From assembly GCF_011059105.1 (NCBI RefSeq), contig NZ_JAALLS010000025.1, positions 10,192 to 66,176 on the forward strand: DNA of 55,985 nt, given 5' to 3'. The notes under the pieces are model-generated. The model saw only the letters and a list, made by a program, of their open reading frames with translations, did not search any database and was not told the DNA's origin. Origin of the DNA: Fodinibius halophilus. GTDB taxonomy: Bacteria; Bacteroidota; Rhodothermia; Balneolales; Balneolaceae. How positions within the stretch are numbered: the stretch's first letter is position 1; each line of letters opens with the position of its first letter. The translations under genes were made by a program, and so were the position numbers. Positions 13,325-36,227 of the stretch are shown here, one piece after another.

Positions 13325-14236
13325 TCACAATTTTATTATCTCTTTATGCAGCACCGGATGCCAGTCAGTAGTATCAATCTGTTCAGCTATTTTGGGATAT
13401 AGCTTATTTTGAGCCTGGCTGTTTTGTTCTAATATTTTATTATGGCTTCGCTTGGTATTGTGTTTCCCCGCTCCGCTAACATTAGATCGAGAAATATAGT
13501 TATATACAGAAGGTTCTGGTGATAACTCAAGAAAACTCAGTAAATCATCAATTGTTTCTTCACCTGATTGTATGAGATCTTTCTGTCGTAATACAAAATA
13601 GGATATTTTTTCTTCATCCAGATCTTTTAACAAATGGTTATAACTGTTGGCCCAATAGTCAAAAATAGTTTGCTCATTTATGTCATGAAAATGATTTTGC
13701 AAGAGTTCAGCGAGTTCTGAAAGGTTGCCTTTACTTATCTGTCGAGCTACTGACTGCACATTCGCCGCATAGTTTCTTAGCACAACCACAACCTTAATAT
13801 TGGGATGAATATACTTCAGAATTGATGTATTAAAATTTAGTCGTACCTCTTTAATAATATCAACAGTAGATATCCGTTTAGAAGGGTATTCCCTAGTTCC
13901 TTTACGATTAAAGTTAAGTTCAAAAAAATCGCGGGCTAAAGGTAAAGCCCTCCAAAGTTTTTCAGCAATTAGAAAATCCAACTGCCAAGCCAGATCTGCG
14001 TCACTTAACCTACTAAAAAAAAACTTGTTCCTTTCCCTTAGGTAAGTGAATTCCTCTTGAAAATATTGGGCTCTCCCAGGTAAATCTTCAATCTTGGTAA
14101 ATCGATTGGGCCATTGCTTAAACCTACTGGTACGTTCTGACAATGGTTCCATATATAACTCTGTTCCAGAATGCATATCTAATATATTAGACACCCACGT
14201 CGTCGCCGATCGTTCTATACCTAATATAAATACCAT
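13325..14236 (-). CDS. PAPS-dependent sulfotransferase family protein
   Basis: 303-residue protein opening with GIERSATTW (6-14), the 5'-phosphosulfate-binding loop of sulfotransferases, and with VVVLRNYAANVQSVARQ further on, matching the 3'-phosphate-binding strand and helix (Arg and Ser). This suggests sulfate transfer from PAPS to a sugar or lipid. It lies between a sugar aminotransferase and a glycosyltransferase in one tight operon, so the likely target is the surface polysaccharide. The family is broad and the acceptor is not predictable. No signal peptide; cytoplasmic. Confidence 0.8.
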   Translation of the reverse strand: MVFILGIERSATTWVSNILDMHSGTELYMEPLSERTSRFKQWPNRFTKIEDLPGRAQYFQEEFTYLRERNKFFFSRLSDADLAWQLDFLIAEKLWRALPLARDFFELNFNRKGTREYPSKRISTVDIIKEVRLNFNTSILKYIHPNIKVVVVLRNYAANVQSVARQISKGNLSELAELLQNHFHDINEQTIFDYWANSYNHLLKDLDEEKISYFVLRQKDLIQSGEETIDDLLSFLELSPEPSVYNYISRSNVSGAGKHNTKRSHNKILEQNSQAQNKLYPKIAEQIDTTDWHPVLHKEIIKL

Positions 14237-19889: not shown

Positions 19890-20891
19890 ATGAAAAAGAA
19901 ATATTACTTCATTGGTGTTGCCTTTTTTATTGTTCTGCTTATTGGGTATCACTTTTTTGCAGCATCCCAGGCCGAACAGATGATCGATGAGGCGATACAG
20001 AAAGAGACCCAAAAGAACGATGCCATCTCGGTACAATATTCTGCTATTCAGGTAGCTCCCTTTGCAGCAGATGTGACTATTAACGACCTTACAATCATCC
20101 TGGATAACCATATCGAACGGGCCAATAAGCTCAGCTTTGATATAGGCTACATCGATTTTTTAAATATCTATGTAGGGGGAATAAGTTATGGGCTCGATCA
20201 TCTTCAAAACCTACAAGTAGCAGCTATTCGCCCTACTTATGTTAATAAAAAGGGATTGGAAGAGATAAAAGCTGATACTTTGAAGATAAGCTACCACGGC
20301 AATGCACTTGACGGGCTACGCAGTGCAATAAACGGCACACCCTTTGCCAGTTCTCAAACCATTGAGGCCCAAAGCTCCGGCTTAACTTTTTCTATACCCC
20401 AAACAACCTTTTCTACGGTTAGAGCCCATCATTTTCAATACAGTGGAACTATTGCTGAAGAGCAGGCAAACTTCTGGACAGAAGGCAGCCATCAGTTCCA
20501 ATTGGATTCCCTCGTATGGACCCCCTCAACGAACTTTCAAAATAGCTATAGCTTCTTTATTAAAGGCTTTGGATACCCGACTGATGCCATTCCCTTCAAA
20601 TCTGCCCAACTCCACTCAAAACCAACACATAAAGCTGATGGATTACATATTGAAGGTTCAGTAAGGTCTGAACTGGCCCTGTTTTCTACTACCGGTTTTA
20701 TTCAGCTCAGAACTCCCCTGGAACAATCCAAAATTGAGGGGATGAAAATATCAGCCAGTGAATTTTCTAATTCTTTCAGTAATGTGCTCACAAATATAGA
20801 ACGGTTACTCTCTTTTTCTATCCCAAAAGAAAACGGTAGTATAAGCCTGCAGTTGGAAGGCCCTATTTCCAATCCTTCTATCAAGAAATAA
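19890..20891 (+). CDS. membrane-anchored extracytoplasmic protein, AsmA-like, function unknown
   Basis: 333 residues from the ATG at 19890, which begins a clean signal-anchor (MKKKYYFIGVAFFIVLLIGYHFF); an in-frame ATG 36 nt upstream would add polar residues before it. The remainder is extracytoplasmic and rich in alternating beta-strand sequence, with segments such as VTINDLTIIL and ADTLKISYHGNALDG reminiscent of AsmA/DUF748-type proteins of the envelope. It has no cysteine lipobox and no catalytic motif. It follows hisS by 64 nt. The similarity is by pattern only; the function is not known. Confidence 0.6.
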   Translation: MKKKYYFIGVAFFIVLLIGYHFFAASQAEQMIDEAIQKETQKNDAISVQYSAIQVAPFAADVTINDLTIILDNHIERANKLSFDIGYIDFLNIYVGGISYGLDHLQNLQVAAIRPTYVNKKGLEEIKADTLKISYHGNALDGLRSAINGTPFASSQTIEAQSSGLTFSIPQTTFSTVRAHHFQYSGTIAEEQANFWTEGSHQFQLDSLVWTPSTNFQNSYSFFIKGFGYPTDAIPFKSAQLHSKPTHKADGLHIEGSVRSELALFSTTGFIQLRTPLEQSKIEGMKISASEFSNSFSNVLTNIERLLSFSIPKENGSISLQLEGPISNPSIKK

Positions 20892-21251
20892 ATTGCCCAA
20901 CCACTGTTTGCACTCACAAGATCAGTAGCAAGTCAACCTCTTTTAGTTTGGCCCCTAAAAATTTAGTAGTCTGGACTCAGCATTCAGAACTTAGGAGTCA
21001 GGAGCCAGAAGTCAGGAACCAGAATGGATATTGCCAAGTAAAACAGCTAAAAGCATGGATTAGGGGACTGAGTGACTTAATCACCAAGTGACAGGCCGGG
21101 ATTCTCTCAATTCCTAATTTTAAATTTCTCATTCTTAATTGTTCAGAATCCAACCTCCAGTATATTGTATCCTAAATCCTACATCCTATCCTCATGCATC
21201 ACGAGACACGCATAACGGTATCACGCAACAAAATTGGCCGCAAATAAAAAA
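20892..21251. other. gene-free spacer with degenerate short repeats
   Basis: No coding frame is supported here. The stretch contains a tandem 14-mer pair differing by one base (GTCAGGAGCCAGAA at 20997-21010, GTCAGGAACCAGAA at 21011-21024), then TAATT/TTCTCATTCTTAATT-like runs (21106-21140) and a CCTA-rich run (21168-21194). These look like slippage-derived, slowly decaying microrepeats rather than functional sites. Confidence 0.5.
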
Positions 21252-21270
21252 GGCGACCCGAAAGCCGCCT
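21247..21270 (-). terminator. rho-independent terminator of nhaA
   Basis: On the minus strand GGCGGCTTTCGGGTCGCC folds into a 7-bp stem (one G-U pair inside, a U-G closing pair) around a UUCG tetraloop, followed at once by six Ts. It lies 29 nt past the nhaA stop codon and reads in the right direction. Confidence 0.8.
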
Positions 21271-21298
21271 TTTCAATACCAATAATGTTTAATAGCTA

Positions 21299-22654
21299 TT
21301 ATGAAGTGGCCTCACTTCCCTCAGGCACATCATATGGTTGTTGGGTATCCGCGCCATAGTCCGGACGACGACTGAGAACATAGTATCCCAAAACGCCACT
21401 GACAAAAGAACCCAAGAGAATACCAATTTTACCAAACTCCAAGAACTCTGAACCTGCATCAAAAGAGAGATTGGCAATAAAGAGTGACATGGTAAAGCCG
21501 ATTCCGGCCAGCAGGGCAACGCCATACACCACCTTCCAGGTTTCCTTGTTATCAGCAAGGTCGGTAAATCCTAACTTTGTTAAGATCCAGGTAAATCCTA
21601 AGATTCCAATCTGCTTACCAACAAACAGTCCTATTGCGATACCCCATGTTAATGTTGAGGCAAAAGCATGGCCCATTACTTCAGTATCAAAAACAACCCC
21701 TGCATTGGCAAATGCAAAGATCGGCATAATCAGAAAATAAACTGAAAAATGCAGCTTGTGTTCCAACCTGTGCAAGGGCGATTCTGCGTGTACTACGGTT
21801 TCTTCCATATGGTGCAGTGCCTGTTCTTTAGTAACGGGCATATCATCCTCCTCAGCCTGCTTAAACAGATCAAAACCTTCTTGAGCATACTCCTTAAGTT
21901 TAGAAACACTCCATCCCCGAGCTGCAGGTATTGCAAATCCAATTAATACTCCTGCAATTGTGGCATGCACACCCGATTTGAGTACAGCCCACCATATTAC
22001 AAAACCAATAATCATGTAGGGCGATATTTTCTCAACCCCACGATAGTTAAGCAGCATCAACACCAGTAGGCCTGCTGCTGCAATACCCAATGCAATCATA
22101 CTGATAGATTCCGTATAGAAAAACGCAATAACCAATACTGCGATAAGATCATCAACCACGGCAATTGCGGTAACAAAGACTTTCGCCCACACCGGTACTC
22201 GTGTACCCAGTAAGGCAACAACCCCAATCACAAAAGCAATATCCGTTGCCATGGGGATCGCCCAGCCACTCATATTTGCCGATCCGGCATTAAATCCCCA
22301 GTATATCAAGGCCGGTAGCAAAGCCCCGCCTACGGCTGCTACAGCAGGTAACAAGGCCGACTGAACGGTTGAGAGTTCACCATATTTAAGTTCTCGCTTA
22401 ATCTCTAAACCAACGAGCAAGAAAAATATCGCCATCAGCCCATCATTAATCCAATGATGAACTGATTCATCAATAGTTAGATTGCCAACCCCAATTTGGA
22501 TATGCATCTCTAAAAAGTGATGATATATTTCATAGAGTGGACTATTAGCCACAATCAAGGCAAGAATGGTGGCAAAAAGAAGCATCATTCCCGCTGCAGA
22601 GTCTTTTCGAAAAAAACTCTTAATCTTTTCTGTTATACTACTATTATTTGTCAC
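21299..22654 (-). CDS. nhaA: Na+/H+ antiporter NhaA
   Basis: Inner-membrane antiporter exporting Na+ in exchange for protons, important for pH and salt homeostasis. At 451 aa it is longer than the E. coli protein (388 aa), with extra length in a cytoplasmic loop rich in acidic residues (about 255-285). The ion-binding aspartate pair is visible in TAIAVVDDLIAVLVIAFFY, and INDGLMAIFFLLVGLEIKRE and MATDIAFVIGVVALLG are NhaA signatures. First of a set of ion and amino acid transporters; own terminator downstream. Confidence 0.95.
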   Translation of the reverse strand: MTNNSSITEKIKSFFRKDSAAGMMLLFATILALIVANSPLYEIYHHFLEMHIQIGVGNLTIDESVHHWINDGLMAIFFLLVGLEIKRELKYGELSTVQSALLPAVAAVGGALLPALIYWGFNAGSANMSGWAIPMATDIAFVIGVVALLGTRVPVWAKVFVTAIAVVDDLIAVLVIAFFYTESISMIALGIAAAGLLVLMLLNYRGVEKISPYMIIGFVIWWAVLKSGVHATIAGVLIGFAIPAARGWSVSKLKEYAQEGFDLFKQAEEDDMPVTKEQALHHMEETVVHAESPLHRLEHKLHFSVYFLIMPIFAFANAGVVFDTEVMGHAFASTLTWGIAIGLFVGKQIGILGFTWILTKLGFTDLADNKETWKVVYGVALLAGIGFTMSLFIANLSFDAGSEFLEFGKIGILLGSFVSGVLGYYVLSRRPDYGADTQQPYDVPEGSEATS

Positions 22655-22726
22655 TTTCCTGTTATTTTGAATTAATTTTTACGTTAAATAAACTTGTTTC
22701 GCTCTTATCAGAGTAGCCGTCCCTCT

Positions 22727-24856
22727 TTAGTTTTCGACGGACTTACGCCATTCTTTAATAACCTCAATATCTTCTATGTCTCCAATTATTGATAACTGAT
22801 CATTTTCTTCTATTACGGTAGATCCGTGGGGAATTTTAATATCGCCATTGCGCTTAAGAATGGTAATTAAACTTTCACCCGGCAGATCAACCTCCATTAT
22901 CTTTTTACCAATAAGCTCGCGTGTACTATTTTGTTTTGTAATAGTGATATTGATGAAACGTTCATCTCTGAGTAAGATCTCACGGAGCTCCGATTCATTT
23001 GATGCGCTGTTCCAACGTTCAATAAAATGTCTGCTGCCAATCATCTCTGCCAAGTGAGCAATAATCCGTAAGTGCTGACTGGAATTTTCAGATGAACTTA
23101 CTAAAAAGATCATTGCACATAAATTTTCGACCTCCCCGGTCTCATCTTCATCAAGTACTTCGTATCCCTCGGTAGAAACCGTAATGCTCTCGGGAATACG
23201 TACAAGTACCATCTGCGGGTCACAATCTTTCTCAACCCGTATATGGTTGATCACCGTATTATTGCCAAGAGGAATGGTACCCAGATCCTGTGCTTTACAA
23301 AAGTCATCAACGAGCTGTTGCTCCTCCATCTTTAACCGTTTAGCAAGTATATCAGAAGCCTGCTTAATAATGGTTGTATAACTCAGCTTATCCGTGGGTT
23401 CATCGATAACCTCTGCCTGTGCAACAACCTGTTCATAGGGATCCTCCTCGCGCAACCCTTTTTCCCTGAGAATGCCACGCATCTCTCGCTCAAGCCCGTA
23501 ATCTTTTCGCTTACCGAGCCGGGCCGTTACATGAAAAATAGCTCCCTCCCGATCGATCTTGCCATAAGCATAGTAATAAAACCATCCTACACTAAAAATA
23601 CTGACTACAACAGTAAAGATAATCGACAGCAACCCCATTTCCAGGATAAGAACAGCAGAAAGAATCATCCCTGCTATTTGGATCCAGGGATAGAATGGAG
23701 AATTAAATCCGGGATCATACTCCTCAATCTTACTCTCGCGCATTACAATTACGGCAAGATTCAACAGTGCAAAAAGCATCAGCTGAAATGCACTGGCTAA
23801 CTTAGCCACCTCAGCCACATCAAAAGCAACCAAGAAGAATATCATCAAGAATACGGTTGCGATGATAGCAATCACCGGCGTCCCCATTGTGCCTATTTTT
23901 GAAAACCATTTATCAATAAGTTTGTCACGGGCCATAGCCAATGGATAACGAGAAGCCGACATAATACCCGCATTACCGGTAGATGCAAAAGCTGCTACCG
24001 CTGCTATAACCACAAGCAGTATTCCCATATCACCCGGTAACCAGCTCATAAAGGCTTCGCCTGCGGTTGCTACAGGAGTTAAATCTTGACGAAACTCAGT
24101 AGGATCCAATACCGAAACCATAATAAAGACCCCTGCTACATAGACAAATATGGCCGACATAATAGATAAAAACATCCCCCACGGTATATTCCGATCGGGA
24201 TTTCTTACCTCTTCGGCAACACTTGCAACCTTTGTCAACCCGGCATAAGAAACGAATACCATCCCAACCGTAGCCCAAAAACCGGTTGCCCCGTTAATAA
24301 AAAGTGGAGTAAACTGTGTTCTTGTCACCTCAAAGAAATCAACTGAAAATACTGAAAAAAGTCCCTGGGCAATATAGAACGTCATAATACTTATTAAGGC
24401 AGCCACCAGTACTTTTTGTAGCGCTGTTGTTTCTTTGGCCCCCACGATATTTAAAAGCCCAAAAACCACAGTTAATACAATTGCGACCGGAACAATGGGT
24501 ACCTCAATAAAAATTGAGATATAGGCACCCATCCCTATCAAAGCAAAAGCACTTTTGAGAACAAGGGCTAACCATGAGCCATATCCCCCAACAGTACCCA
24601 TTACAGGGCCTAAACTGCGATCAATAATATAATAAGTGCCACCTGCTTTGGGCATAGCAGTCGCCAGTTCTGCAACACTGAACATGGTTGGTAAAACAAG
24701 CAACCCGGAAACTAAATAAGCAATAAAAACTGAAGGGCCTGTTTCTGCAGCAGCAATGCCGGGTAGCAAGAAAAAACCAGAACTGAACATTGCACCGGTT
24801 GCTATGGCATATACATCCCATAATCCCAGCTGTTTTTCTAATTTTTCATGTTCCAT
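22727..24856 (-). CDS. APC-family permease fused to PTS EIIA-like and RCK_C domains
   Basis: A 709-aa fusion. Residues 10-430 are an amino acid-polyamine-cation (APC) permease with about 12 TM helices (GAMFSSGFFLLPG, PKAGGTYYIIDRSLG, FVSYAGLTKVASVAEEV, ASTGNAGIMSASRYPLAMARD). Residues about 490-630 match a fructose-type EIIA domain: NHIRVEKD places H538 at the phospho-acceptor histidine, and SSQHLRIIAHLAEM is the second EIIA motif. Residues about 636-703 form a TrkA-C/RCK_C ligand-binding domain (GKKIMEVDLPGESLI, GDQLSI-type end). The substrate is unknown. The architecture suggests transport controlled by phosphorylation and a bound ligand. Confidence 0.85.
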   Translation of the reverse strand: MEHEKLEKQLGLWDVYAIATGAMFSSGFFLLPGIAAAETGPSVFIAYLVSGLLVLPTMFSVAELATAMPKAGGTYYIIDRSLGPVMGTVGGYGSWLALVLKSAFALIGMGAYISIFIEVPIVPVAIVLTVVFGLLNIVGAKETTALQKVLVAALISIMTFYIAQGLFSVFSVDFFEVTRTQFTPLFINGATGFWATVGMVFVSYAGLTKVASVAEEVRNPDRNIPWGMFLSIMSAIFVYVAGVFIMVSVLDPTEFRQDLTPVATAGEAFMSWLPGDMGILLVVIAAVAAFASTGNAGIMSASRYPLAMARDKLIDKWFSKIGTMGTPVIAIIATVFLMIFFLVAFDVAEVAKLASAFQLMLFALLNLAVIVMRESKIEEYDPGFNSPFYPWIQIAGMILSAVLILEMGLLSIIFTVVVSIFSVGWFYYYAYGKIDREGAIFHVTARLGKRKDYGLEREMRGILREKGLREEDPYEQVVAQAEVIDEPTDKLSYTTIIKQASDILAKRLKMEEQQLVDDFCKAQDLGTIPLGNNTVINHIRVEKDCDPQMVLVRIPESITVSTEGYEVLDEDETGEVENLCAMIFLVSSSENSSQHLRIIAHLAEMIGSRHFIERWNSASNESELREILLRDERFINITITKQNSTRELIGKKIMEVDLPGESLITILKRNGDIKIPHGSTVIEENDQLSIIGDIEDIEVIKEWRKSVEN

Positions 24857-25020
24857 ATTGAGTATATACCAAATTAAAAGCCTACATTAATTAATTCTAA
24901 TCGAGGGCAATAATAAGAAAAGTTTTGCCCTTCAACTACTCTGTATTATTCTTTTTCAATGATATTACATCTTCTATATAGAGATAACTGTTTTCTTTTG
25001 CGCATACAACAAACAGCATA

Positions 25021-27141
25021 TTAGTTTTCCCTAAATCCTTTTATTTCTTTAATGTCTTCTGGATCTCCCACAATCGAAAGTCGATCTCCTTCTTGGATCA
25101 CCGTATTACCATGCGGGATGTTTATCTCACCCTTCCGTTTCAACATAGTAACAAGACTTTCTCCGGGTAACTTTATTTCTTTCATTTTCTTTCCAATCAT
25201 ATCTTTTGTCTTATTACTGCTTTGTACTTTAATATTGATGAATCGTTCACTTCGTAGCAGTATTTCTCGCAACTCAGCTTCATCTTTCGCATTCTTCCAT
25301 CGCTTCAGAAAATCATCTTGGTCAATCATTTCAGCGGTGTGAGCCAAAAAACGGAGATGCTGAGTAGAATACTCCTCCGGACTCACTAAGAAGAAAATGG
25401 CATAGAGTTTAGCCCCTTCTTGGTCTCCAACCAAGGAATCATAATGTTCATCATCTATCGTCACCCCTTCTTTTACCCGTACAATAACCAATTCAGGATC
25501 AGCATCGGTTTGCATTCTTGTATGATTTAATGCCGCACCTTCTCCAATAGGGATAGCTCCAAAATCACTTACAGAATCAAAAGCTTGGTGTAACGTTTCT
25601 TCACTTATACCCGCTTTTGAAGCCAAGTCGGAACAAGCCCGATCTACGATATCCTGATATGGGGTATGGGAATCTTCGACATCACAAACCGTTGCCCTAC
25701 TCACAACAAGTTCATAGGGGTCTTCATCACGAAGGCCCTTTTCCTGCAATATGTGGCGCATTTCATTCTCAAGCCCGTAATCTTTATACTGGCCCAAGCG
25801 TTCATGGACATGAAAGATAGCCCCCTGCCGATCGATCTTGCTGTAGGCATAATAATAGTACCAGGCTACCGACAAAATCATTATTGCAACGGTAAACAGA
25901 ATAGACAGAATTCCCATTTCAAAAATAAGCAGTCCCGAAGTTAACATCCCGATCATCTGCACCCAAGGATAAAACGGGGATTTATAGCCCGGGTCATATT
26001 CCTCGATCTGGCTCTCACGCATAACAATTACTGCCAGATTAAGCAGTCCGAATAAAAGTAGCTTAAAAGCACTGGCCAATTTAGCTACCTCTTTTACATT
26101 AAAGACCAGGAGTAAAAAGATCATCATTCCCGTAGTAACAGCAATCGATGTTGTAGGGGTATCAAACTTACCCAATTTCGAAAACTTGGGGTGGACTAAT
26201 TTATCCCGCGCCATAGCTAACGGAAATCGGGAAGCTGACATAATACCTGCATTACCGGTAGAAGCAAAAGCTGCAATTGCTGCAATAACAACAAGAATTA
26301 AACCGGTATCACCGGGAAGCCAGTCCAGAAAAACATCTCCTGCAGTAGCAACAGGGGTAAGATCCTCCATAAAAGCACTTGGCTCAAGAACTGCAGTCAT
26401 CAGATATACTCCCGACACATACACCACAATAGCAGTCGTAATCGACAGGAACATCCCGCGAGGAATATTACGATCCGGATCTTGCACTTCCTCAGCAACG
26501 CTTACAACTTTTGTAAGCCCGGCATAGGATACAAATACCATCCCGACTGTTGCAAAAAATCCCTGAACCCCTTCTTTAAAAAATGGGGTGAATTGCTCGC
26601 GATGCACATCCAGGATATCCAGAGAAAACAGATGCGAGAATCCCTGCACCAGATAAAAAGCCATAACAGAGAGCAAAGTAATCACAAGAATATTTTGCAA
26701 CTTACTGGTCTCTTTAGCTCCAAAAATATTCAACGCTCCAAATGCCACTGTCAAAATAATAGCTACAGGCGTAATTGGCACATCAAAAAATATTGAGATA
26801 TAGGCTCCCATACCGATAAGAGCAAAAGCGCTCTTAAAAACCAGTGACAACCATGAACCAAACCCTCCAATACTTCCCATCAACGGGCCAAGCGTTCTAT
26901 CAATGATATAATAGGTGCCCCCGGCTCTAGGGAATGCTGTTCCCAGTTCTGCCTTACTTAACATAGTAGGCAACACCAACAGACCAGACACAAGATAAGC
27001 CAAAAAAACCGATGGCCCTGTCTCACCAGCTGCCAGCCCCGGCAACAGGAAAAGACCGGAACTAAACATCGCTCCCGTTGCAATTGCAAAAACATCAAAT
27101 GAACCGAGTTGTTTTTTTAATTTTTTTGATTCTTCTAGCAT
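25021..27141 (-). CDS. APC-family permease fused to PTS EIIA-like and RCK_C domains (paralogue)
   Basis: 706-aa tandem paralogue of the gene downstream at 22.7 kb, with the same three-part layout and very high similarity throughout the permease part. The EIIA-like histidine is H540 in ALNHTRMQTD, followed by STQHLRFLAHTAEM; the RCK_C domain begins near LRSERFINIKVQSSNK and ends with GDRLSIVGDPED. The linker between permease and EIIA is the most divergent part, and the EIIA region has changed more than the membrane core, which suggests separate regulatory inputs. The two copies are separated by 164 nt without a gene. Confidence 0.85.
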   Translation of the reverse strand: MLEESKKLKKQLGSFDVFAIATGAMFSSGLFLLPGLAAGETGPSVFLAYLVSGLLVLPTMLSKAELGTAFPRAGGTYYIIDRTLGPLMGSIGGFGSWLSLVFKSAFALIGMGAYISIFFDVPITPVAIILTVAFGALNIFGAKETSKLQNILVITLLSVMAFYLVQGFSHLFSLDILDVHREQFTPFFKEGVQGFFATVGMVFVSYAGLTKVVSVAEEVQDPDRNIPRGMFLSITTAIVVYVSGVYLMTAVLEPSAFMEDLTPVATAGDVFLDWLPGDTGLILVVIAAIAAFASTGNAGIMSASRFPLAMARDKLVHPKFSKLGKFDTPTTSIAVTTGMMIFLLLVFNVKEVAKLASAFKLLLFGLLNLAVIVMRESQIEEYDPGYKSPFYPWVQMIGMLTSGLLIFEMGILSILFTVAIMILSVAWYYYYAYSKIDRQGAIFHVHERLGQYKDYGLENEMRHILQEKGLRDEDPYELVVSRATVCDVEDSHTPYQDIVDRACSDLASKAGISEETLHQAFDSVSDFGAIPIGEGAALNHTRMQTDADPELVIVRVKEGVTIDDEHYDSLVGDQEGAKLYAIFFLVSPEEYSTQHLRFLAHTAEMIDQDDFLKRWKNAKDEAELREILLRSERFINIKVQSSNKTKDMIGKKMKEIKLPGESLVTMLKRKGEINIPHGNTVIQEGDRLSIVGDPEDIKEIKGFREN

Positions 27142-27223
27142 TAAAAATAGTATATTAATTAATTGAAGTTACTTAGGATGGGAGAACAGCTCTTAGATAA
27201 AAAGTTAATCTTGCCCTAATATC

Positions 27224-27466
27224 TTATTCGATTTTATTCTCATCTTCGGAATCTGCAAATAGGTTCGCTTCTTTACCCAAACGCCCCATCATTCGAATGC
27301 CGTACGCAATTACCATAAGGCCAATAAATCCTTGCGCTTTCACACTAAATATTGGGTGAAGGTCAAAAAGCACTATAATGATGTATTCTACCGCTGCCGA
27401 TGCTATAACAATGCCCACCAGCCAAACCAGCTCTGTAATAAGCTTACTCTTGAGTTGGGTATTCAT
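27224..27466 (-). CDS. small two-helix membrane protein, unknown
   Basis: An 80-residue protein with two hydrophobic helices (about 12-34 and 43-62) joined by a short loop and ending in an acidic tail. I do not recognise the family. It lies 82 nt upstream of the second permease fusion on the same strand, and codon use looks like its neighbours, so it is likely real. It could be an accessory subunit of the permease, but nothing in the sequence proves that. Confidence 0.6.
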   Translation of the reverse strand: MNTQLKSKLITELVWLVGIVIASAAVEYIIIVLFDLHPIFSVKAQGFIGLMVIAYGIRMMGRLGKEANLFADSEDENKIE

Positions 27467-27747
27467 AAAAATAGATTTTTTTAAATTAGACCTTATAAAC
27501 TGAGTTTAGAAGTACGTCGTTTCATTTTTACCCAAAGGTTCTTTTTCTTCTATGGAAGAACAAAGGTTAACTGGACATTAAATAATGGGATTTTTTTACA
27601 CATAATTCCTTTATTGATTTAAATATACATCTAGTAGATCCAATAATCTATCAAAAAACTTTGTTAATCATATTTCATTTATTGATTTTCAGTCTCTAAA
27701 AGATCAACATTTATTTTTAACTCTGCTATAGCTATAAAAGTTTTTCC

Positions 27748-29550
27748 ATGGCTGAACACTTACTAATTGGCATTACAAGCATCCTCATTTTTGGTATTGG
27801 GGCACAGTGGGTTGCATGGCGATTTAAACTCCCTGCTATATTATTATTACTTATCTCCGGTATTGCCGCCGGCCCTGTTTTTGGATTACTGGACCCAGAC
27901 CAACTCATGGGCGACCTTTTAGCTCCTTTTATTTCTGTTTCTGTTGCTATCATTCTCTTTGAGGGAGGCCTGAGCCTACGATTTTCGGAATTGAAAAATA
28001 TTGCCGGCATAGTCGGTAACCTCGTAAGTATAGGTGTAGTTGTTACATGGGTCATTACCGGAGTTTCAGCCTTTTATCTATTTCCTTTGGGGTGGGAATT
28101 ATCCATACTATTAGGTGCTATACTGGTAGTTACAGGGCCTACGGTTATTATCCCACTGCTCAGGCAGGTGCGTCCTTCAGGTCAGGTAGGCTCTATATTA
28201 AAGTGGGAAGGAATTGTCATTGACCCCATCGGGGCCATGTTAGCCGTACTTGTTTTTGAAGTGATATTAAGTACCAGCCTCTCAGCCGCAACGAGTCTGG
28301 CAGTAATGAGTATTGTTAAAACAATTTTCTTTGGCACTCTAACGGGATTAGCCGGTGCCGGTATGATCTATTTCTTACTAAAAAGGCACTTGTTACCTGA
28401 TTTCCTTCAAAACCCAATCAGTCTTATGGTCGTGGTAACGGTCTTTACCATCTCCAACATGTTACAACATGAATCAGGACTTTGGGCAACAACACTAATG
28501 GGAATTGCATTGGCCAATCAGAAATCAGCTCAAATACACCACATAACTGAATTTAAAGAGAACCTCCGGGTCCTTCTGCTATCAGGATTGTTTATATTAT
28601 TAGCAGCTAGAGTTGAGCTGAGTAGTCTGATGGATAACTTAAACTGGAACCTGGTAGCCTTTTTAGCAATCCTGATCTTTGTGGCCCGCCCCATCGGTGT
28701 GTATATCTCGACCATATTCTCGGACATCAACTGGCGCGAGAAGCTGTTTCTGTGCTGGATGGCACCACGAGGTGTTGTAGCCGCATCCATTTCTTCGATC
28801 TTTGCTATCAGCTTGGCACAAAATGGTTTTGAAAACGCCAACCAATTAGTACCCATTGTCTTTTTAGTTATCATTAGTACCGTTACAATTTATGGGTTAC
28901 CCGCTTCTTGGGTTGCCCGAAAGCTGGGTGTTGCAAAACCTGTTCCCAATGGTGTTCTAATTCTTGGGGCTCACGATTGGGCTTTAAAAATTGCAGAAGC
29001 AATTAAAAATGAAGGATTTAAAGTATTGGTAGCAGATGCAAACTGGAAACATATAGCAAAAGCGCGAAAGAAGGGGTTTGAAACATATCACGGTAATATC
29101 CTCTCCGAGTTTGCTTTGGATGATATTAATCTGGATGGGGTAGGACGCATGCTTTCGCTAACCCCTAACGATGAAGTCAACTCTTTGGCAGCCCTTCGGT
29201 TCGGAGAAATTTTTGGGCGGTCCCATGTTTTTCAACTTGCTCCAAACACCAAGCAGCATACCGAAGAGAAAGAAGTTACCAGTCATCTAAGCGGACGTAT
29301 CTTATTTGATCCCAAGCTCAATTTTGATCACATATCAAAAATTATGGCAAAAGATGATGTCATAACTGTTGAAGAGGTGACAGAAGATAACAAACCCGAT
29401 GAAGCTGAAGTTGGTCAGGAAAAAATTCCGTTATTTCAAATTACATCCAACAATGAAATTCAGCCCTTTACTGTAGACAACCCGCCTACTGCAACCGTTG
29501 GAAATAAGATATTTTATATTCCCTATGTTGAAGAGCTTACAGAGGTATAG
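27748..29550 (+). CDS. CPA1-family Na+(K+)/H+ antiporter with TrkA-N domain
   Basis: A 600-aa cation:proton antiporter. Residues 1-395 hold about 12 TM helices with family signatures ILFEGGLSLRFSELK, LVVTGPTVIIPLLRQVRPSG, and EGIVIDPIGAMLAVLVFE (the Asp of the transport site), plus WMAPRGVVAASISSIFA. From about residue 412, VLILGAHDWALKIAEAIKNEG starts a Rossmann-type TrkA-N (RCK_N) domain, so transport is probably gated by a nucleotide. It diverges from the two-helix gene across a 281-nt AT-rich spacer in which no clear promoter box was found. Confidence 0.9.
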   Translation: MAEHLLIGITSILIFGIGAQWVAWRFKLPAILLLLISGIAAGPVFGLLDPDQLMGDLLAPFISVSVAIILFEGGLSLRFSELKNIAGIVGNLVSIGVVVTWVITGVSAFYLFPLGWELSILLGAILVVTGPTVIIPLLRQVRPSGQVGSILKWEGIVIDPIGAMLAVLVFEVILSTSLSAATSLAVMSIVKTIFFGTLTGLAGAGMIYFLLKRHLLPDFLQNPISLMVVVTVFTISNMLQHESGLWATTLMGIALANQKSAQIHHITEFKENLRVLLLSGLFILLAARVELSSLMDNLNWNLVAFLAILIFVARPIGVYISTIFSDINWREKLFLCWMAPRGVVAASISSIFAISLAQNGFENANQLVPIVFLVIISTVTIYGLPASWVARKLGVAKPVPNGVLILGAHDWALKIAEAIKNEGFKVLVADANWKHIAKARKKGFETYHGNILSEFALDDINLDGVGRMLSLTPNDEVNSLAALRFGEIFGRSHVFQLAPNTKQHTEEKEVTSHLSGRILFDPKLNFDHISKIMAKDDVITVEEVTEDNKPDEAEVGQEKIPLFQITSNNEIQPFTVDNPPTATVGNKIFYIPYVEELTEV

Positions 29551-29644
29551 TAAGAGTAGTAGCTTCATTGATAGAATTTGAGATAACCTAAATTCTTATA
29601 TATTGCAGTAGATAGCACAATAAATCGTGGGTAATATATCTATC

Positions 29645-30688
29645 ATGTATAGATGGGTGATTTGCATATTGGTAACTGCAGGGTTAAGCTTTCAACTTAG
29701 TTGTAGCCGTTCTGCTATGCTCTTTTCTTCCAACAACCAGGACAGTACCGCTACGAAGCACTATACAACAAGCTTCCCTACCTACGATATATCGAAACAT
29801 ATAGAGGATGCTCGCAGCTCTATTTTGAGAATTCTTTCTACAAGTTTTTATGATACCTATACCTTCGACGAAGCATACCTGACGCTCGATGATATTAAAA
29901 CCAATACCCCGAAAGAACTAGCTGATGCCCACTACTCTTCTGAAGAGAGTACTGCCGGAACAGGTATCGTATTAGAGAACGCTTTTAGCAACTCATTAAT
30001 TATTACCTGCCAACATGTAGTATCATCACCCGATACTGTTATTAGCTATTTTGAGGGCAGCGATATTCCAGAGGAGACTTTTGTCAAATCAATAAGCATT
30101 AAACACAAACAAAATAATCTACTGTTTACCAAAAACAGAATCTATAGTTTTAATATTATTGCTGCTAATGAAAACCATGACATAGCACTACTTTCTGTAG
30201 ACATCCGCGAAGATGAAAAGCTACCTCATCCCCCTATTCAGTTTGGCCTCGGAGATTCGGATGATCTGAAAATGGGGTCCTTCCTTTATGTGTTAGGCTT
30301 CCCAAGTGGATATCCAATGATAACCCGCGGTATTACAAGTACACGCCCCAAAAAAAACAAACACTTTTTTCTTACAGACGCTTTATTTAATCCGGGGATT
30401 AGTGGCGGGCTGGTATTAGCCAGCAAGAATAATTTTCACGACTTTAAATGGGTGGGCATGGCACGTTCTGCAACAGCATCGGAGGAAAATATATTGGTAC
30501 CACGTACATTTAATAAAGACTACAGCAAGCTGGCAAAACCCTATGCAGACCAAGCTTTTGTGCAAAAGAAAGTGAGAATTTCATATGGAATTACTCAAGC
30601 TATCCCCATTAATACAATCAAAGACTTTATAGAGAATCATCAGCAGCAAATTACTGAAAACGGCTTCCGATATTCTATAAGAGATTAG
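29645..30688 (+). CDS. trypsin-like serine protease, lipoprotein
   Basis: Secreted S1-type protease of 347 aa. I chose ATG 29645, since it begins a lipoprotein signal (MYRWVICILVTAGLSFQLSC); a GTG 18 nt upstream is also open. The triad is visible: His in IITCQHVVSS, Asp in NENHDIALLSVD and Ser in NPGISGGLVLA (H124, D179, S253 from this start). The oxyanion motif is GISGG in place of the common GNSGG. No PDZ domain follows, unlike DegP/HtrA. Envelope protein processing is likely; targets unknown. Confidence 0.8.
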   Translation: MYRWVICILVTAGLSFQLSCSRSAMLFSSNNQDSTATKHYTTSFPTYDISKHIEDARSSILRILSTSFYDTYTFDEAYLTLDDIKTNTPKELADAHYSSEESTAGTGIVLENAFSNSLIITCQHVVSSPDTVISYFEGSDIPEETFVKSISIKHKQNNLLFTKNRIYSFNIIAANENHDIALLSVDIREDEKLPHPPIQFGLGDSDDLKMGSFLYVLGFPSGYPMITRGITSTRPKKNKHFFLTDALFNPGISGGLVLASKNNFHDFKWVGMARSATASEENILVPRTFNKDYSKLAKPYADQAFVQKKVRISYGITQAIPINTIKDFIENHQQQITENGFRYSIRD

Positions 30689-30720
30689 CTAACCTAGTAC
30701 AACCTTTTTTATCTTGGACG

Positions 30721-32100
30721 TTATAAACGGCTGTGGATAAACCTCAATATTTTTTCCATTTCTTCTTTAACTACTGATGTTGATGTTACATAGTGATTAT
30801 TCATAAAGCTAAATATCAACTTTCTGCCACTTTCTGTAATAAGATAACCACTTAAACTATGGTTATTGCTGAGGGTCCCTGTTTTGGCAAATACATACGG
30901 TTTATCCCCTTCTGCAGGAAGATACCAATCTTTAATGGTACCACTCTCACCTCCTGCAGGAAATAGATGAAAGAGATTTTTATCCTCAGTAAATTCATCA
31001 TCAATTAGCCAAAGCAGGTGAATAATAGAGCGGGGAGTAAACATATTGTATCGAGACAGCCCCGACCCATCAACCCATTGCGGTTTATCTGGGAGAACAT
31101 CGAAATACTCATTACTCATCTTCTCGATCGTACTATCAGAATTCAAGGGATTCCCCAATTCTGCAGCAGCTACCAAAAGTAGTTGCTCGGCAATAAAGTT
31201 ATCACTTGGTAATAACATTCGTTTGTATGCCGTATCAGATTTAATACTATAAATTACTTGTGCTGAATCTGGCTTTGTTATATCTCTTAAATACGTTACC
31301 GATTTGCCTAAGGTATCAGTTAACATATCGGTAATCAGTTCTGGCGTATAATGATATGGCTTATCAATGGTATACCTTTTAGTATCGGCCTGTGGTTTAT
31401 ACTCAAATTCGTTATTTGTGAACCCTCGAAAAAGTATAGGATCGTTGGGGATCTTCTTTACCTCTTTGTTTATATATGAACGAAAGATCGGTGGGGACAC
31501 TGCTAAACCACTATCAGTAGTAACAACCTGTCGCCGTTTTACTTCTTCTATTGTAAACGTAGCTGTATTACCATACATCGGCAGTGGGCTCTTTTCGGTT
31601 TGATAGTAGTAGTTAGAATCATCCCAGGCCCATCCGGGTCCAAAGCGTTTACTCTTAAAGTTGGAATCCGAATAATACAGTTGTTCTTCTCTGTTCTTCA
31701 GGAATTGATATACGCTCCCGTTGCCAAACTCGGGGTGTAAGAATGAAGGATCTCCCGTACCCCAGAAAATAAGTGAGTCACCGCGTACCACATACTCTAA
31801 TGCCCGAATTGAATCCGGTAACAGTTTCAAACCGGCATAAAAGGTAAACAGTTTGGTATTTGATGCCGGGGTAAAGTAACGCCCCTCATTATGTCCGTAA
31901 ATCAAAGTATCTTCTTGGGGATCATACAGGGCAAAACCGGTAAGGTTAGATGAAAACACCTTGGAAGTATCAAACATTACCGCAAAGGGAGACTTCGATT
32001 TCTTCGTGGTGGTTTCAACTATTGTTTCGGTTGTTTGACATCCACCGAGCATGAACATTCCCAACCCAAAAATAAAACAAGATATACGAAATAATTTCAT
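30721..32100 (-). CDS. dacB: D-alanyl-D-alanine carboxypeptidase/endopeptidase (PBP4 type)
   Basis: Peptidase S13 enzyme that trims or cleaves peptidoglycan peptides in the periplasm. All three penicillin-binding motifs are present: SxxK as S80-N-T-K83 in TPASNTKLF, SDN in LPSDNFIAEQ, and KTG in FAKTGTLSNNHSLSGY. The 459-aa protein begins with a lipoprotein signal ending at C21 (LGGC), so it is membrane anchored, unlike the soluble E. coli PBP4. It converges with the protease gene. Two further peptidoglycan-type or DapB-like genes follow upstream on the same strand. Confidence 0.9.
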   Translation of the reverse strand: MKLFRISCFIFGLGMFMLGGCQTTETIVETTTKKSKSPFAVMFDTSKVFSSNLTGFALYDPQEDTLIYGHNEGRYFTPASNTKLFTFYAGLKLLPDSIRALEYVVRGDSLIFWGTGDPSFLHPEFGNGSVYQFLKNREEQLYYSDSNFKSKRFGPGWAWDDSNYYYQTEKSPLPMYGNTATFTIEEVKRRQVVTTDSGLAVSPPIFRSYINKEVKKIPNDPILFRGFTNNEFEYKPQADTKRYTIDKPYHYTPELITDMLTDTLGKSVTYLRDITKPDSAQVIYSIKSDTAYKRMLLPSDNFIAEQLLLVAAAELGNPLNSDSTIEKMSNEYFDVLPDKPQWVDGSGLSRYNMFTPRSIIHLLWLIDDEFTEDKNLFHLFPAGGESGTIKDWYLPAEGDKPYVFAKTGTLSNNHSLSGYLITESGRKLIFSFMNNHYVTSTSVVKEEMEKILRFIHSRL

Positions 32101-32212: not shown

Positions 32213-33208
32213 TTATGGGCTCGCCTCATCAAAATAGGCAGGAACCTGTATATCCAACATCGTTTTGAGACCTGCCCCTGCCTCGCGAACCGAACAAATT
32301 GCATTTACTGTAATAGCCGAAGTTGCAATATCACCATTAATACCCCCGTCAATAGTTGAAGTAAAAGTCGGAGTTCCCGAAATGTTGATAGTGTCGTGAG
32401 AATGAGTAACTCCTGCTGCAGCTTTAAAAACGAGAGTGATAACCTCCTTTCCATCTCTATAACCCCGCCCTACCTGTTTAACTCCAGAAACCTGCCCCTT
32501 ATCAACATCTATCCGATCATTTTTCAAATCCCGGTCAGCTTTCACCAGTTCTAATGTCTCCTCAACATCACTCAACTGCCAATTCATAGCATCGGCAATC
32601 ATACGCACCGACTCCTCTACTCCTACGTGCCTGATGGAATCGCGTTTAGCTTTGAATTCTGCTTCTGTAAGCCCTATACCAATTTTATCTCGAAAGGGTT
32701 TACGTCGCGGCTCGGCATCTTGAATGCGCTCCACTTTTACCTTATCAATCTTCTGGCATACTGATGTTAATACTGAAGGCAGATAATCCATCAAAAAACC
32801 GGGATTTACTCCCGTGCCCAGACAACTAACCGCCTGCTTTCGACAATGTTCATCAATCCGTTTTGCTACTTCAGGCTGTGTTTGCCAGGGATGCGAAAGT
32901 TCCTCGCAGGTCGAAACAATATCCAAACCATGACCTGCTGCTTCAATAATCTGCGGTGATACCTTTTTAAGGGATGACAAGGTCGTAATAACGGCTACAT
33001 CGGCTTTATCCAGTAAAGCAACGGAATCCAAGTCCGGCGCAATTTCAACTCCTATTTTTTGCAGTCCTGCATGTTCACCGAGATCATTACCAATTTTATT
33101 GGGATCCGGATCAATCCCACCCACGATAGAAATACCTTCGCGCTCGGCCAGGTAGCGTGTTAATTGCTGTCCTATCGGGCCAAGTCCCATTTGTACAATA
33201 TTCATCAT
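32213..33208 (-). CDS. DapB-like NAD(P)-dependent dehydrogenase (2,4-diaminopentanoate DH-like)
   Basis: 331-aa oxidoreductase with an N-terminal Rossmann fold (GLGPIGQQL at 8-16) and the extended central domain of the dihydrodipicolinate reductase-like/2,4-diaminopentanoate dehydrogenase family (GTGVNPGFLMDYLPSVL). It is longer than true DapB (about 240-270 aa) and lacks the DapB KxxSG..H catalytic segment, so it should not be called dapB. No ornithine-fermentation genes are nearby. It sits between two penicillin-interacting proteins, which may hint at a cell wall amino acid role, but this is speculation. Confidence 0.78.
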   Translation of the reverse strand: MMNIVQMGLGPIGQQLTRYLAEREGISIVGGIDPDPNKIGNDLGEHAGLQKIGVEIAPDLDSVALLDKADVAVITTLSSLKKVSPQIIEAAGHGLDIVSTCEELSHPWQTQPEVAKRIDEHCRKQAVSCLGTGVNPGFLMDYLPSVLTSVCQKIDKVKVERIQDAEPRRKPFRDKIGIGLTEAEFKAKRDSIRHVGVEESVRMIADAMNWQLSDVEETLELVKADRDLKNDRIDVDKGQVSGVKQVGRGYRDGKEVITLVFKAAAGVTHSHDTINISGTPTFTSTIDGGINGDIATSAITVNAICSVREAGAGLKTMLDIQVPAYFDEASP

Positions 33209-33235: not shown

Positions 33236-34147
33236 TTAGTTAGCTATAAACTTGTAGATATCTCCGGAAATATCAGCAAATGCCGACTGCACTCTTTCTC
33301 GGTTAGGGGCATTTTTTGAAAGTAAAACCAATACATACTTATGTCCATTCGGAAGAATAATGAGCCCCGCGTCGTGATTGACACCGGTAATCCAGCCGGT
33401 TTTATGAGCCACAACTACACTTTCCGGAAGCTGAGCCGGAATCATTTCGTTAAAATGTTGTTCGATAAGGATTTCAATCATCGCCTCCGAAGCCTCCCTG
33501 CTCACTGCCTGCCCCTTGCCCAGCTGTTCATAAATAATTGCTTCGTCAAGTGCTGTAGTTCTATTACTGAGTCCCTTTTCGTATGCCTTAATATCCTCGA
33601 CCCCTCGCAGTACCATAATACTGTCAACACCATAACTACGCATCGTTTGTGTCACGTTGTGGGCACCAACCTTTTGGATAAGAATGTTTGTTGCCAGGTT
33701 ACTGCTCATGGTAATCATATCAGTAATCAGTTGGCGGATCGACCTTTTCTTACCGATCATATCATAGAGCTTGCCCTCACTGTCTTCCGATATATCCATT
33801 TCATAACGACTGCTATCTACAATGCTTCGAAATTCATTTTTAACAGTGATAGAATCATCCAGCGAAAATCTGCCGTTCTCTGCCTGGTTAAAAAGCTCAA
33901 TCATTACCGGTGTTTTCATGGTACTGGCAGCATGGAATTTCTCTCGCTCATTGATATAAATAGCCTGGCTGGTATCGCTCAGATTTTTAAAGGCTACTGC
34001 AAAATCGCCCTTTACCTTTTTTAACTGCTTCTTGATCTTACTTTTAAGACCACGGACAGTTTCAACAGAATTTGAGGAAGTGCAAGAAGAGAAGAAAACA
34101 ATTAAAATAAAAGCATATAAGATCGTTACAGATCGTTTTTTTATCAT
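33236..34147 (-). CDS. class A beta-lactamase-like serine hydrolase, lipoprotein
   Basis: 303-aa extracytoplasmic protein with a lipoprotein signal (FSSC, C22). The active-site motifs are STMK (S75 nucleophile, K78), SSN (148-150, in place of SDN) and HKTG (248-251, in place of KTG preceded by other residues). The omega-loop region around VEDIKAYEKGLSNRTTA has acidic residues, but an exact equivalent of Glu166 cannot be assigned by eye. It may be a beta-lactamase or a peptidoglycan DD-peptidase relative; resistance should not be assumed. 27 nt separate it from the dehydrogenase gene, so they are likely co-transcribed. Confidence 0.8.
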   Translation of the reverse strand: MIKKRSVTILYAFILIVFFSSCTSSNSVETVRGLKSKIKKQLKKVKGDFAVAFKNLSDTSQAIYINEREKFHAASTMKTPVMIELFNQAENGRFSLDDSITVKNEFRSIVDSSRYEMDISEDSEGKLYDMIGKKRSIRQLITDMITMSSNLATNILIQKVGAHNVTQTMRSYGVDSIMVLRGVEDIKAYEKGLSNRTTALDEAIIYEQLGKGQAVSREASEAMIEILIEQHFNEMIPAQLPESVVVAHKTGWITGVNHDAGLIILPNGHKYVLVLLSKNAPNRERVQSAFADISGDIYKFIAN

Positions 34148-34739: not shown

Positions 34740-36227
34740 TTAATTATAAAACCACATTGGGGTTGCAATACTCTTTTGAGCCTTTTTAACCTCTTCCTGA
34801 TTTCGACTCAGTTCAGAACTTGGATATACCGCCCGCTGTATCCACACTCCATCCAGTTCGTCATTGTGATCAGCAGGTAACGCCAAATCTTTAAATATTT
34901 GCGAGTCAAAATCATAGCGCCGATAATCATTATAGACTTCCGGGTTCAGAAATAGAGCCTTAAATTTTTCTTTCATTATCAGCTCCATAGTTAAGTTACC
35001 TGCACCAACATCCACACTGGCAGCATTTATATAATTGTTCTTTGCGTTAGCTGATACACCCAGCTTATCCATATTTGCACTAATACCCGCCAAGTAGGCA
35101 TCATAAGCCTGTTGTGACGCTCCGGTCGCTGATTCGCTACCATTATTGGCTTTTAGAAAAGCAGCTTCAGCTTCAATAAACTTCATTTCTGCATAGGTCA
35201 TCATAATGATGGGAGCTGCTGCCCGAGAATGAAAGGTCTCATCTGTAAAAGCTGTATTTGAGCTGTTGTCCGGAGCATCTTCATTAACCCCAAAGTTTCC
35301 ATTTTCGCTACCATAGTAGTCTGTATCTCCACCATTATCGGCAATAATGGGCAAGCGTGGATCGGCCTCGGGATAAGTTTCTCCGTTCATCATATCGATC
35401 AGTTGATCGGAGTGTACCGGAGCCGGATTCCCTGTTTGAGCTGCTAAGTACGCGCTGGTATGCCAGGGGTTCAGATTCTTCTCATTATTGTAATTTATCT
35501 GGAAATCATCTGCATTACTGGTATAAGCATTGCTCAGAGCTGAGAGGGCATTATCAGCAGCTGCAACAGCTCCTTGCTCCGTCACATGAATAGCATTACG
35601 AGCCTTCAAGGCATAGGCAGTCTTTATCCATTTATCAATATTGCCACCATATATGATATCATCGCTTCCCGGCTCATTAAATTCAGAAGGTGCTTTTTCC
35701 AGTTCCGTTATTCCCTCATTTAAAAGCTGGTCAATAGCATTGTATATCTCCTGCTGATTATCATAACTTGGTGAAAATTCACCCTCTTTGAAGGCATCAC
35801 TCCAAGGTATGTTTTCCCATGTATTTGTAGCAAGACTCAAATTATAAGCCTGCATAACCTTAACAATACCCAAGTAATGAGAAGCCCCGGTCTCTTTCGC
35901 TTTTTGCTCCATCTCATCGAGGTTGTTTAGACTCGACAAATAGATTTCAACCCACGCGCCGGCTAACTGTGCCTCCTCATGAGAGTCCGTTTCACCAACA
36001 AAAGAGATATGTTGTGAATATTGAGAAAACGTAAAAGCGATATCAAAATGAGCTTTACTGGTTGAGACGAGCACAGGAGGCAACAGTGCATCGAGCCCAA
36101 TCTCATCTTTAAACACCCTGTTAGGATCTTTATTGGTATCTCCTCCCAAATAGTTTTCGCAAGCTCCAAATACAAAAACTACCAGGATACATACTAACGT
36201 CGTAATATATTGCTGTAATTTATTCAT
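34740..36227 (-). CDS. SusD/RagB-family outer-membrane lipoprotein
   Basis: Surface nutrient-binding lipoprotein that caps the SusC-type channel. The lipoprotein signal begins at the ATG at 36227 (MNKLQQYITTLVCILVVFVFGAC) and is followed by the CENYLGGDTNKDPNR start typical for the SusD-like_2 subgroup. TPR-like helices (SSLNNLDEMEQKAKET, GIVKVMQAYNLSLATNTW, IPWSDAF) and the C-terminal AEMKFIEAEAAFLK and NPEVYNDYRRYD complete the family pattern. Full length at 496 aa. It directly follows the interrupted susC, so without a receptor it may be an orphan. Substrate unknown; no glycoside hydrolase is next to it. Confidence 0.9.
   Translation of the reverse strand: MNKLQQYITTLVCILVVFVFGACENYLGGDTNKDPNRVFKDEIGLDALLPPVLVSTSKAHFDIAFTFSQYSQHISFVGETDSHEEAQLAGAWVEIYLSSLNNLDEMEQKAKETGASHYLGIVKVMQAYNLSLATNTWENIPWSDAFKEGEFSPSYDNQQEIYNAIDQLLNEGITELEKAPSEFNEPGSDDIIYGGNIDKWIKTAYALKARNAIHVTEQGAVAAADNALSALSNAYTSNADDFQINYNNEKNLNPWHTSAYLAAQTGNPAPVHSDQLIDMMNGETYPEADPRLPIIADNGGDTDYYGSENGNFGVNEDAPDNSSNTAFTDETFHSRAAAPIIMMTYAEMKFIEAEAAFLKANNGSESATGASQQAYDAYLAGISANMDKLGVSANAKNNYINAASVDVGAGNLTMELIMKEKFKALFLNPEVYNDYRRYDFDSQIFKDLALPADHNDELDGVWIQRAVYPSSELSRNQEEVKKAQKSIATPMWFYN

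Follow-up and report, generated by a model that had tools for sequence, protein, structure and literature searches.

What does an EIIA domain of the phosphoenolpyruvate (PEP)-dependent phosphotransferase system (PTS) do when it is built into a transporter of another family? This question is raised by a stretch of 55,985 nucleotides from Fodinibius halophilus, a member of the Balneolaceae (contig NZ_JAALLS010000025.1, positions 10,192 to 66,176; hereafter the window), in which two tandem genes, P0001 and P0002, each encode an APC permease followed by an EIIA domain and an RCK_C domain. An initial annotation, made from the sequence alone, had proposed that these EIIA domains could be targets of the enzyme I (EI) and HPr encoded in the same window, in a sugar-independent regulatory PTS branch controlling amino acid or cation flux. 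We found that this interpretation as a whole is partly supported, and that the strongest new element is not the phosphorelay; it is a link to cation transport, together with a tail that the permeases share with antiporters.

Two Permeases with an EIIA-RCK_C Tail

22727-24856, minus strand: P0001 fusion, an open reading frame (ORF) of 709 residues with H538 and H595, sharing all three domains of its tandem paralogue P0002
25021-27141, minus strand: P0002 fusion, an ORF of 706 residues with H540 and H595; APC permease at about 1-440, PtsN-like EIIA at about 475-629 and RCK_C at about 634-701, from Pfam, structure models and PDB matches

The two proteins are 64% identical, and in both of them all three Pfam domains scored above the curated cut-off (27 bits each). 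The scores of P0001 and P0002, respectively, were 139.4 and 157.8 bits for AA_permease_2, 50.7 and 46.4 bits for PTS_EIIA_2 (PF00359), and 39.3 and 46.9 bits for TrkA_C (PF02080). Since the EIIA part gave E-values of 2.5e-13 in P0001 and 5.1e-12 in P0002, its match is not a chance one in either protein. These profile searches, among them those with PF00359 and PF02080, confirm the fusion of an APC permease, an EIIA-like domain and a TrkA-C/RCK_C domain that the initial annotation had described. No Rfam family matched positions 20800-30800 of the window at gathering cut-offs.

The full-length model of P0002 (predicted local distance difference test score, pLDDT, 85.4) had as its top Foldseek match 6f34/5oqt, a bacterial homologue of cationic amino acid transporters, and phmmer agreed on this protein as the nearest to the membrane part. 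Both fusions are APC-type permeases, probably of the cationic amino acid type. The RCK_C domain in a model of the P0002 tail matched TrkA C-domains as well as 5f29 and 4ys2, two entries titled RCK domain 'with cda'; Foldseek gave 3jxo and 5f29 among its matches. We take 'cda' in these entries to be cyclic di-AMP (c-di-AMP), and the protein to be CpaA of Staphylococcus aureus. The genome encodes one diadenylate cyclase.

The Tail Recurs on Antiporters and beside Cation Transporters

Relatives of the EIIA-RCK_C module were collected from a phylum sample of 394 genomes, with up to seven candidates scored per genome, so that paralogues may have been missed. A genome was counted as module-bearing when its EIIA-RCK_C match had an E-value below 1e-20; genomes matched only at 1e-20 to 1e-3 (69 of 139) were not counted. 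A strong match was obtained in 70 of the 394 genomes (genomes, loci and families carry our own labels G, L and f), five of which, in families f5 and f8, carry the module on an antiporter; in G385, the module was seen as a fragment at a contig end. A wider scan gave at least 517 relatives, whose best 80 loci (hereafter the 80 loci) include Balneolaceae, Cyclobacterium, Thermophagus, Salinivenus, Rubricoccaceae and Gemmatimonadota, and also Phycisphaerae, Lentisphaerales, SAR324, KSB1, Thermoanaerobaculales and Chlorobiota. The APC-EIIA-RCK_C architecture is a large family found in several phyla. One close relative of the fusions (L014, genome G282) has a TAG stop within the matched stretch.

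Two antiporter genes adjoin the fusions in the window:

21299-22654, minus strand: NhaA Na+/H+ antiporter (PF06965 and NhaA models), 72 bases after P0001
27748-29550, plus strand: antiporter with Na_H_Exchanger and TrkA_N (RCK_N) domains (Pfam), divergent neighbour of P0002

On the minus strand, P0002 is followed after 164 bases by P0001 and this, after 72 bases, by NhaA, which is probably co-transcribed with the fusions. Together with the fold of the membrane part, nearest to a cationic amino acid transporter homologue, these neighbours bear out the link to amino acid or cation flux that had been suggested for the locus.

The module proteins of f5 and f8 have the order Na_H_Exchanger-TrkA_N-EIIA-TrkA_C (Pfam on L106 and L043; three more by similarity). 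The first 617 residues of the L106 protein (f5, of the same taxonomic class as the window) are 47% identical to the window antiporter over 610 columns, and its residues 622-847 are 36% identical to the P0002 tail over 228 columns. An f12 relative of the window antiporter (43-44% identical) carries an EIIA domain without RCK_C (Pfam on L066; alignment), and a third kind, another antiporter-TrkA_N-EIIA protein, adjoins NhaA (Pfam on L063 and L069). Pfam was run on these five loci (L106, L043, L063, L066 and L069), and the other antiporter-EIIA architectures were assigned by similarity. In a quick tree, the antiporter tails and the truncated ORF L133 formed a fully supported clade, which is nested in a supported group made up of permease tails of the taxonomic class to which the window belongs. 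Because the antiporter tails nest among permease tails, the tail was probably passed from permease to antiporter, as far as this unrooted tree indicates.

Of 15 antiporter-EIIA loci, 8 have NhaA next to that gene (L057-L060, L063-L065, L069), and NhaA adjoins permease-EIIA genes in the window and in L039, L048, L053, L072, L074, L076, L127 and L131. A relative of the window antiporter lies within the 6-kb flank of a permease fusion in 15 of the 80 loci, some flanks being short. At L128 (Rubricoccaceae), an antiporter-RCK_N-EIIA-RCK_C protein, an APC-EIIA-RCK_C protein and an SLC12-type cotransporter follow one another. A survey of a subset of neighbours covered 30 ORFs, of which 7 belonged to the Bacteroidota loci L124, L190, L128 and L094 and 23 to 13 loci without a Bacteroidota label; among the seven, it recovered a TrkH gene near L190 (Thermophagus) and the SLC12 gene of L128. 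Since the tail also occurs on relatives of the antiporter, and NhaA or the antiporter recurrently adjoin it, the tail appears to be a shuffled regulatory unit for cation- or pH-linked transport.

The L094 locus (G325, f11) holds an APC-RCK permease, an antiporter, an APC-Usp permease and an APC-EIIA-RCK_C protein within 15 kb; the APC permeases at 1104-3143 and 10973-13351 of this locus have TrkA_N-TrkA_C and Usp tails. As APC permeases with RCK, Usp and EIIA-RCK_C tails share 18 kb there, the sensor tails on one APC permease family are possibly interchangeable.

The EIIA Domain and the PTS Components of the Genome

The structure model of the P0002 tail (residues 470-706, built from 54 sequences) reached a mean pLDDT of 90.3. 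Its best match was the Neisseria EIIA-Ntr 2a0j (Z 19.3; root-mean-square deviation 2.1 over 146 residues), next to which 1a6j (Z 18.7) stood among the best matches, and it also matched domains of SLC4 proteins, namely BTR1 (Z 13.8), AE2 (11.9) and band 3 (11.6). H538 of P0001 and H540 of P0002 fall in the same column, and H540 aligns with the histidine of the 'aipHgr' stretch in the Burkholderia PtsN 4gqx, presumably the residue phosphorylated in PtsN. The expected acceptor histidine is thus present in both EIIA parts, as had been claimed, and the label 'fructose-type' has to be replaced, since the matches to 4gqx and 2a0j point to nitrogen-type PtsN/EIIA-Ntr as the nearest type and not specifically to the fructose type. 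The second motif of the initial annotation, QHLR..AH.AEM, begins as SQHLR or TQHLR in the window proteins, and its first histidine (H595 in both) is kept in 82 of 87 modules from the phylum, whereas the AH histidine (H601) is kept in 45 of the 87. By alignment and modelling, the EIIA part of the fusions is PtsN/EIIA-Ntr-like; that it accepts phosphate from HPr is plausible.

The genome (4.19 Mb, 91 contigs, 98.6% complete) encodes EI and HPr in the 4.3-6.3 kb region of the window, where the initial annotation had placed them:

4326-6017, minus strand: PtsI (EI), by Pfam and NCBIfam, with a GGVNSHAAI motif; candidate phosphoryl donor chain
6030-6314, minus strand: HPr, by Pfam and NCBIfam, carrying the motifs GLHARPA and KSILGVM; candidate for the direct donor of the phosphoryl group

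We take the motifs of both proteins to be those of their active sites. HPr is present as a single copy, and there is one HPr kinase. Three PF00359 domains were found in the genome, those of the two fusions and that of a free PtsN-like protein of 156 residues with a PHG motif. No match to PTS_EIIC (PF02378), PTS_IIB (PF02302) or EIIA-man (PF03610) was obtained in the genome, PF00358, PF02255, PF03609, PF03611 and PF03613 lying outside the search. Among the families searched, the lack of a sugar EIIBC partner therefore extends from the window to the whole genome, and on this account a sugar-independent regulatory PTS made up of EI, HPr and EIIA domains is credible, its phosphorylation step being putative. 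The proposal that the fusions are HPr targets stands as regards the EIIA fold and the acceptor histidine, but they are not the sole candidates.

Occurrence of EI and HPr and Conservation of the Acceptor Histidine

EI was found in 277 and HPr in 282 of the 394 genomes of the phylum sample. Both were present in 69 of the 70 module-bearing genomes, the exception being G058, whose three module-bearing f5 relatives have both. EI occurred in 208 of the 324 genomes without the module, a difference with a Fisher value of 6e-11 that is not corrected for descent. PMC2405797 describes the PTS as absent from Bacteroidetes; for the wider group, the EI and HPr matches obtained here do not fit this statement.

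Among 50 genomes searched from the wider set, HPr was found in 41, EI in 41 and both in 40. At least two of the 50 are repeats, since G395 and G402 correspond, by the position of HPr, to G143 and G356 of the phylum sample. Of 58 loci first picked for this search, eight were excluded (L129, L131, L132, L139, L141, L149, L151 and L153), including two Tyr-bearing ones (L149 and L151), and a further 22 of the 80 loci lay outside the search list. Two Cyclobacterium genomes (L124 and L125) are without EI and HPr, and their fusion groups with those of Balneolaceae, which suggests, on this grouping, that the Cyclobacterium fusions arose by horizontal transfer. Of 34 module-bearing genomes in family f1, 22 have HPr on the contig of the module at a distance of 11.9-22.6 kb, 11 have it on another contig, and for one its place is not listed. 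We rejected this proximity as an operon link, because the intervening genes are conserved too (L076, L077), and HPr near the module is accordingly a family-level block.

The acceptor column was examined in 153 distinct modules, 87 from the phylum and 66 further ones. The former set leaves out matches below 100 bits or with fewer than 200 profile positions (L054, L111, set-B antiporter-EIIA proteins and end fragments), and 8 of 96 matches were dropped from the latter. The residue was H in 67, Y in 16, F in 3 and Q in 1 of the 87 phylum modules, and H in 54, Y in 9, N in 2 and D in 1 of the 66 others; the acceptor is thus a histidine in 121 of 153 modules and the second histidine in 146. Of 151 EIIA columns, that of the acceptor is the 17th and that of the second histidine the 5th most conserved, and parsimony requires at least five changes between histidine and another residue on the tree. 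One group lacking the acceptor histidine consists of Balneolaceae paralogues with Tyr, Phe or Gln, with one His-bearing member (L047), whose genomes have EI and HPr; seven f1 genomes (G077, G139, G151, G187, G191, G262 and G360) possess both a His and a non-His module. As judged from the alignments, the acceptor is under constraint, yet it does not cleanly track EI and HPr.

Proposed Mechanism and Alternative Explanations

We propose that the EIIA-RCK_C tail may serve as a two-input cytoplasmic regulator of the APC permease, and that the permeases may act with NhaA and the RCK_N-bearing antiporter in cation/pH or osmotic homeostasis. Phosphate would pass from PEP through EI and HPr~P onto H538/H540, and the phosphorylation state would alter the contacts of EIIA with RCK_C and the membrane part, turning transport up or down. 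This switching would be analogous to that exerted by free unphosphorylated PtsN, acting in trans, on YcgO of E. coli. A second signal, possibly c-di-AMP, would enter through RCK_C. We put the probability of HPr-dependent phospho-control of the permease tail at about 45%; it is favoured by the position-specific conservation of the histidine and by the near-universal presence of EI and HPr. An extended version, in which an EI-HPr relay without a sugar PTS phosphorylates permeases and antiporters via a built-in PtsN, c-di-AMP is read by the second domain, and in some clades a Tyr copy that has left PTS control stands beside the phosphorylatable one or takes its place, is offered more tentatively.

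Several observations weigh against the relay. In 32 of the 153 modules, Y, F, Q, N or D stands in place of the acceptor histidine, and 23 of these modules are in genomes having both EI and HPr. All seven modules of family f11, which group with one Salinivenus module, have Tyr in genomes with EI and HPr, and 12 of 68 in-phylum genomes of the alignment have no His-bearing module. Conversely, eight of the 50 wider-set genomes are without EI and HPr, and four of them keep the histidine (two Cyclobacterium, L146 and L186), the other four having N (L158, L169), D (L181) or Y (L190); the f12 antiporter-EIIA proteins keep it in four of four cases in genomes without EI and HPr. The association between the histidine and EI/HPr gave a Fisher p of 0.077 over 136 modules without tree correction, after the removal of 17 of the 153, namely 15 whose genomes lay outside the EI/HPr search, L172 (EI alone) and L179 (HPr alone). 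An independent-pairs test on the quick tree found only five pairs on well-supported branches, with the histidine mostly unchanged. The co-occurrence of EI and HPr with the module may simply follow phylogeny, and the free PtsN-like protein of the genome is an equally good HPr target. As for the second input, the RCK_C histidine in common with 5f29 is a histidine in only 58 of 153 modules. The evidence on the substrate consists of fold and family only, and the best NCBIfam match, TIGR00909, scored 169.1 and 188.4 bits and did not reach its cut-off of 556.8. Finally, none of the 23 scanned neighbour ORFs from the 13 loci not labelled Bacteroidota encoded a recognised ion transporter, 8 of the 23 being without a Pfam match.

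The same Tyr clades, and the histidines kept without EI and HPr, favour an explanation in which EIIA is a regulatory or interaction module independent of phosphorylation, its two histidines holding the pocket or binding a ligand or partner, as in SLC4 domains. Tyr or Phe occupies the acceptor position in whole clades having EI and HPr, the f12 antiporters and Cyclobacterium keep the histidine without them, and the columns of H595, R597, F611 and W615 are more conserved than the acceptor column. The tail model matches BTR1, AE2 and band 3, a likeness also noted in PMC4664831. Set against this are the 121 histidines in 153 modules with a minimum of only five changes on the tree, the finding that 69 of the 70 phylum-sample genomes with the module encode EI as well as HPr, and the fact that three of the four N, N, D and Q replacements (N, N and D) occur in genomes without EI/HPr. 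We regard this explanation as a serious one, though doubtful.

We consider it unlikely that the permease tail completes the neighbouring antiporter, which has RCK_N only, so that one tail gates both proteins in a permease-antiporter complex. The L106 protein unites antiporter, RCK_N, EIIA and RCK_C in a single chain resembling both window proteins, the antiporter lies in the 6-kb flank at 15 of 80 loci, including L128 where both proteins carry the tail, and the tree places the antiporter tails together in one clade among those of permeases. However, 65 of the 80 loci have no antiporter neighbour in flanks that are partly short, the window antiporter gene is divergent and not co-directional, and a common tail can mean parallel control. 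That the permease is a genuine group-translocating PTS, phosphorylating its substrate through the EIIA domain, is highly improbable: only the presence of EI, HPr and an EIIA domain speaks for it, while the genome gave no match to PTS_IIB (PF02302) or to PTS_EIIC (PF02378), the one EIIC family covered, and the membrane part is an APC transporter nearest 6f34/5oqt, not an EIIC.

Other Genes in the Window

A SusC/RagA-type receptor gene appears as two adjacent minus-strand ORFs, the front at 38283-39728 and the rear at 36246-38270, in one frame by their coordinates; a SusD-like gene follows at 34740-36239. The product of the gene at 33236-34147 resembles class A beta-lactamases (PF13354, 183 bits) but does not reach the NCBIfam cut-off of any named beta-lactamase. 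The gene at 32213-33208 is related to 2,4-diaminopentanoate dehydrogenase (Ord), below the NCBIfam cut-off, and no ornithine-degradation genes were recognised beside it. We rejected ornithine catabolism next to the permeases, as the Ord-like gene is sub-cut-off and its neighbours are the beta-lactamase-like and SusC/D genes.

Relation to Known Systems and Significance

Among the matches listed in our searches of open-licence PMC literature, no title or abstract opening described an APC-EIIA-RCK_C protein. The term 'hypersalinity island', used for Salinibacter, did not occur in the papers listed either. Older PTS surveys reportedly mention EIIA-like domains fused to non-PTS transporters, and for this reason the fusion is not claimed as unpublished. 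The APC permeases with Usp or TrkA_N-TrkA_C tails belong to the same membrane family, and both kinds occur in the L094 locus; their tail is a Usp domain or a full RCK, in contrast to EIIA-RCK_C here. The SLC4 exchangers (band 3, AE2, BTR1) are likewise transporters with an EIIA-fold cytoplasmic domain, and their membrane part belongs to the wider APC superfamily. In these eukaryotic proteins the domain stands at the N-terminus, lacks RCK_C and is not known to use a phospho-histidine. The EIIA-like fold of the AE1 and NBCe1 N-terminal domains is stated in PMC4664831.

According to PMC11808508, unphosphorylated PtsN of E. coli binds the cytoplasmic region of YcgO and inhibits this K+/H+ antiporter, and it is proposed to block the RCK domain of YcgO from activating antiport. 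That system also pairs a PtsN-type EIIA with a cation-linked transporter having a putative RCK, and there the phosphorylation state governs the interaction. It differs in that a separate PtsN acts in trans on a CPA1 antiporter, through a putative CorC domain. In the window proteins, by contrast, EIIA shares one chain with an APC permease and so lies in cis, there was no match to a CorC domain, and their phosphorylation is only predicted. As far as the searched families go, the genome also resembles Brucella melitensis, whose incomplete regulatory PTS has no PTS permease and consists of EI, an HPr-like carrier, EIIA proteins and HPr kinase (PMC2937029), but here transporters incorporate two of the three EIIA_2 domains. 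PMC10243994 counts RCK_C among the domains that bind c-di-AMP and names CpaA, a K+/H+ antiporter, as a protein carrying it. Like CpaA of S. aureus, the window proteins have a cytoplasmic RCK_C on a transporter, one that matches 5f29 and 4ys2; unlike CpaA, they are APC permeases, EIIA precedes RCK_C, and the ligand is putative.

What purpose a PTS serves in the absence of sugar permeases has long been asked, and in E. coli PtsN reaches YcgO in trans. The fusion puts EIIA, acceptor and target on one chain, and the natural His-to-Tyr variants and the genomes free of EI and HPr provide controls. If the tail is not phosphorylated, it would represent a prokaryotic counterpart of the SLC4 EIIA-fold regulatory domain. 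If it is phosphorylated, direct control by the PTS would, in several phyla, reach beyond sugars to the transport of amino acids and cations, and should the proposed mechanism hold, energy state and osmotic state would converge on one transporter tail.

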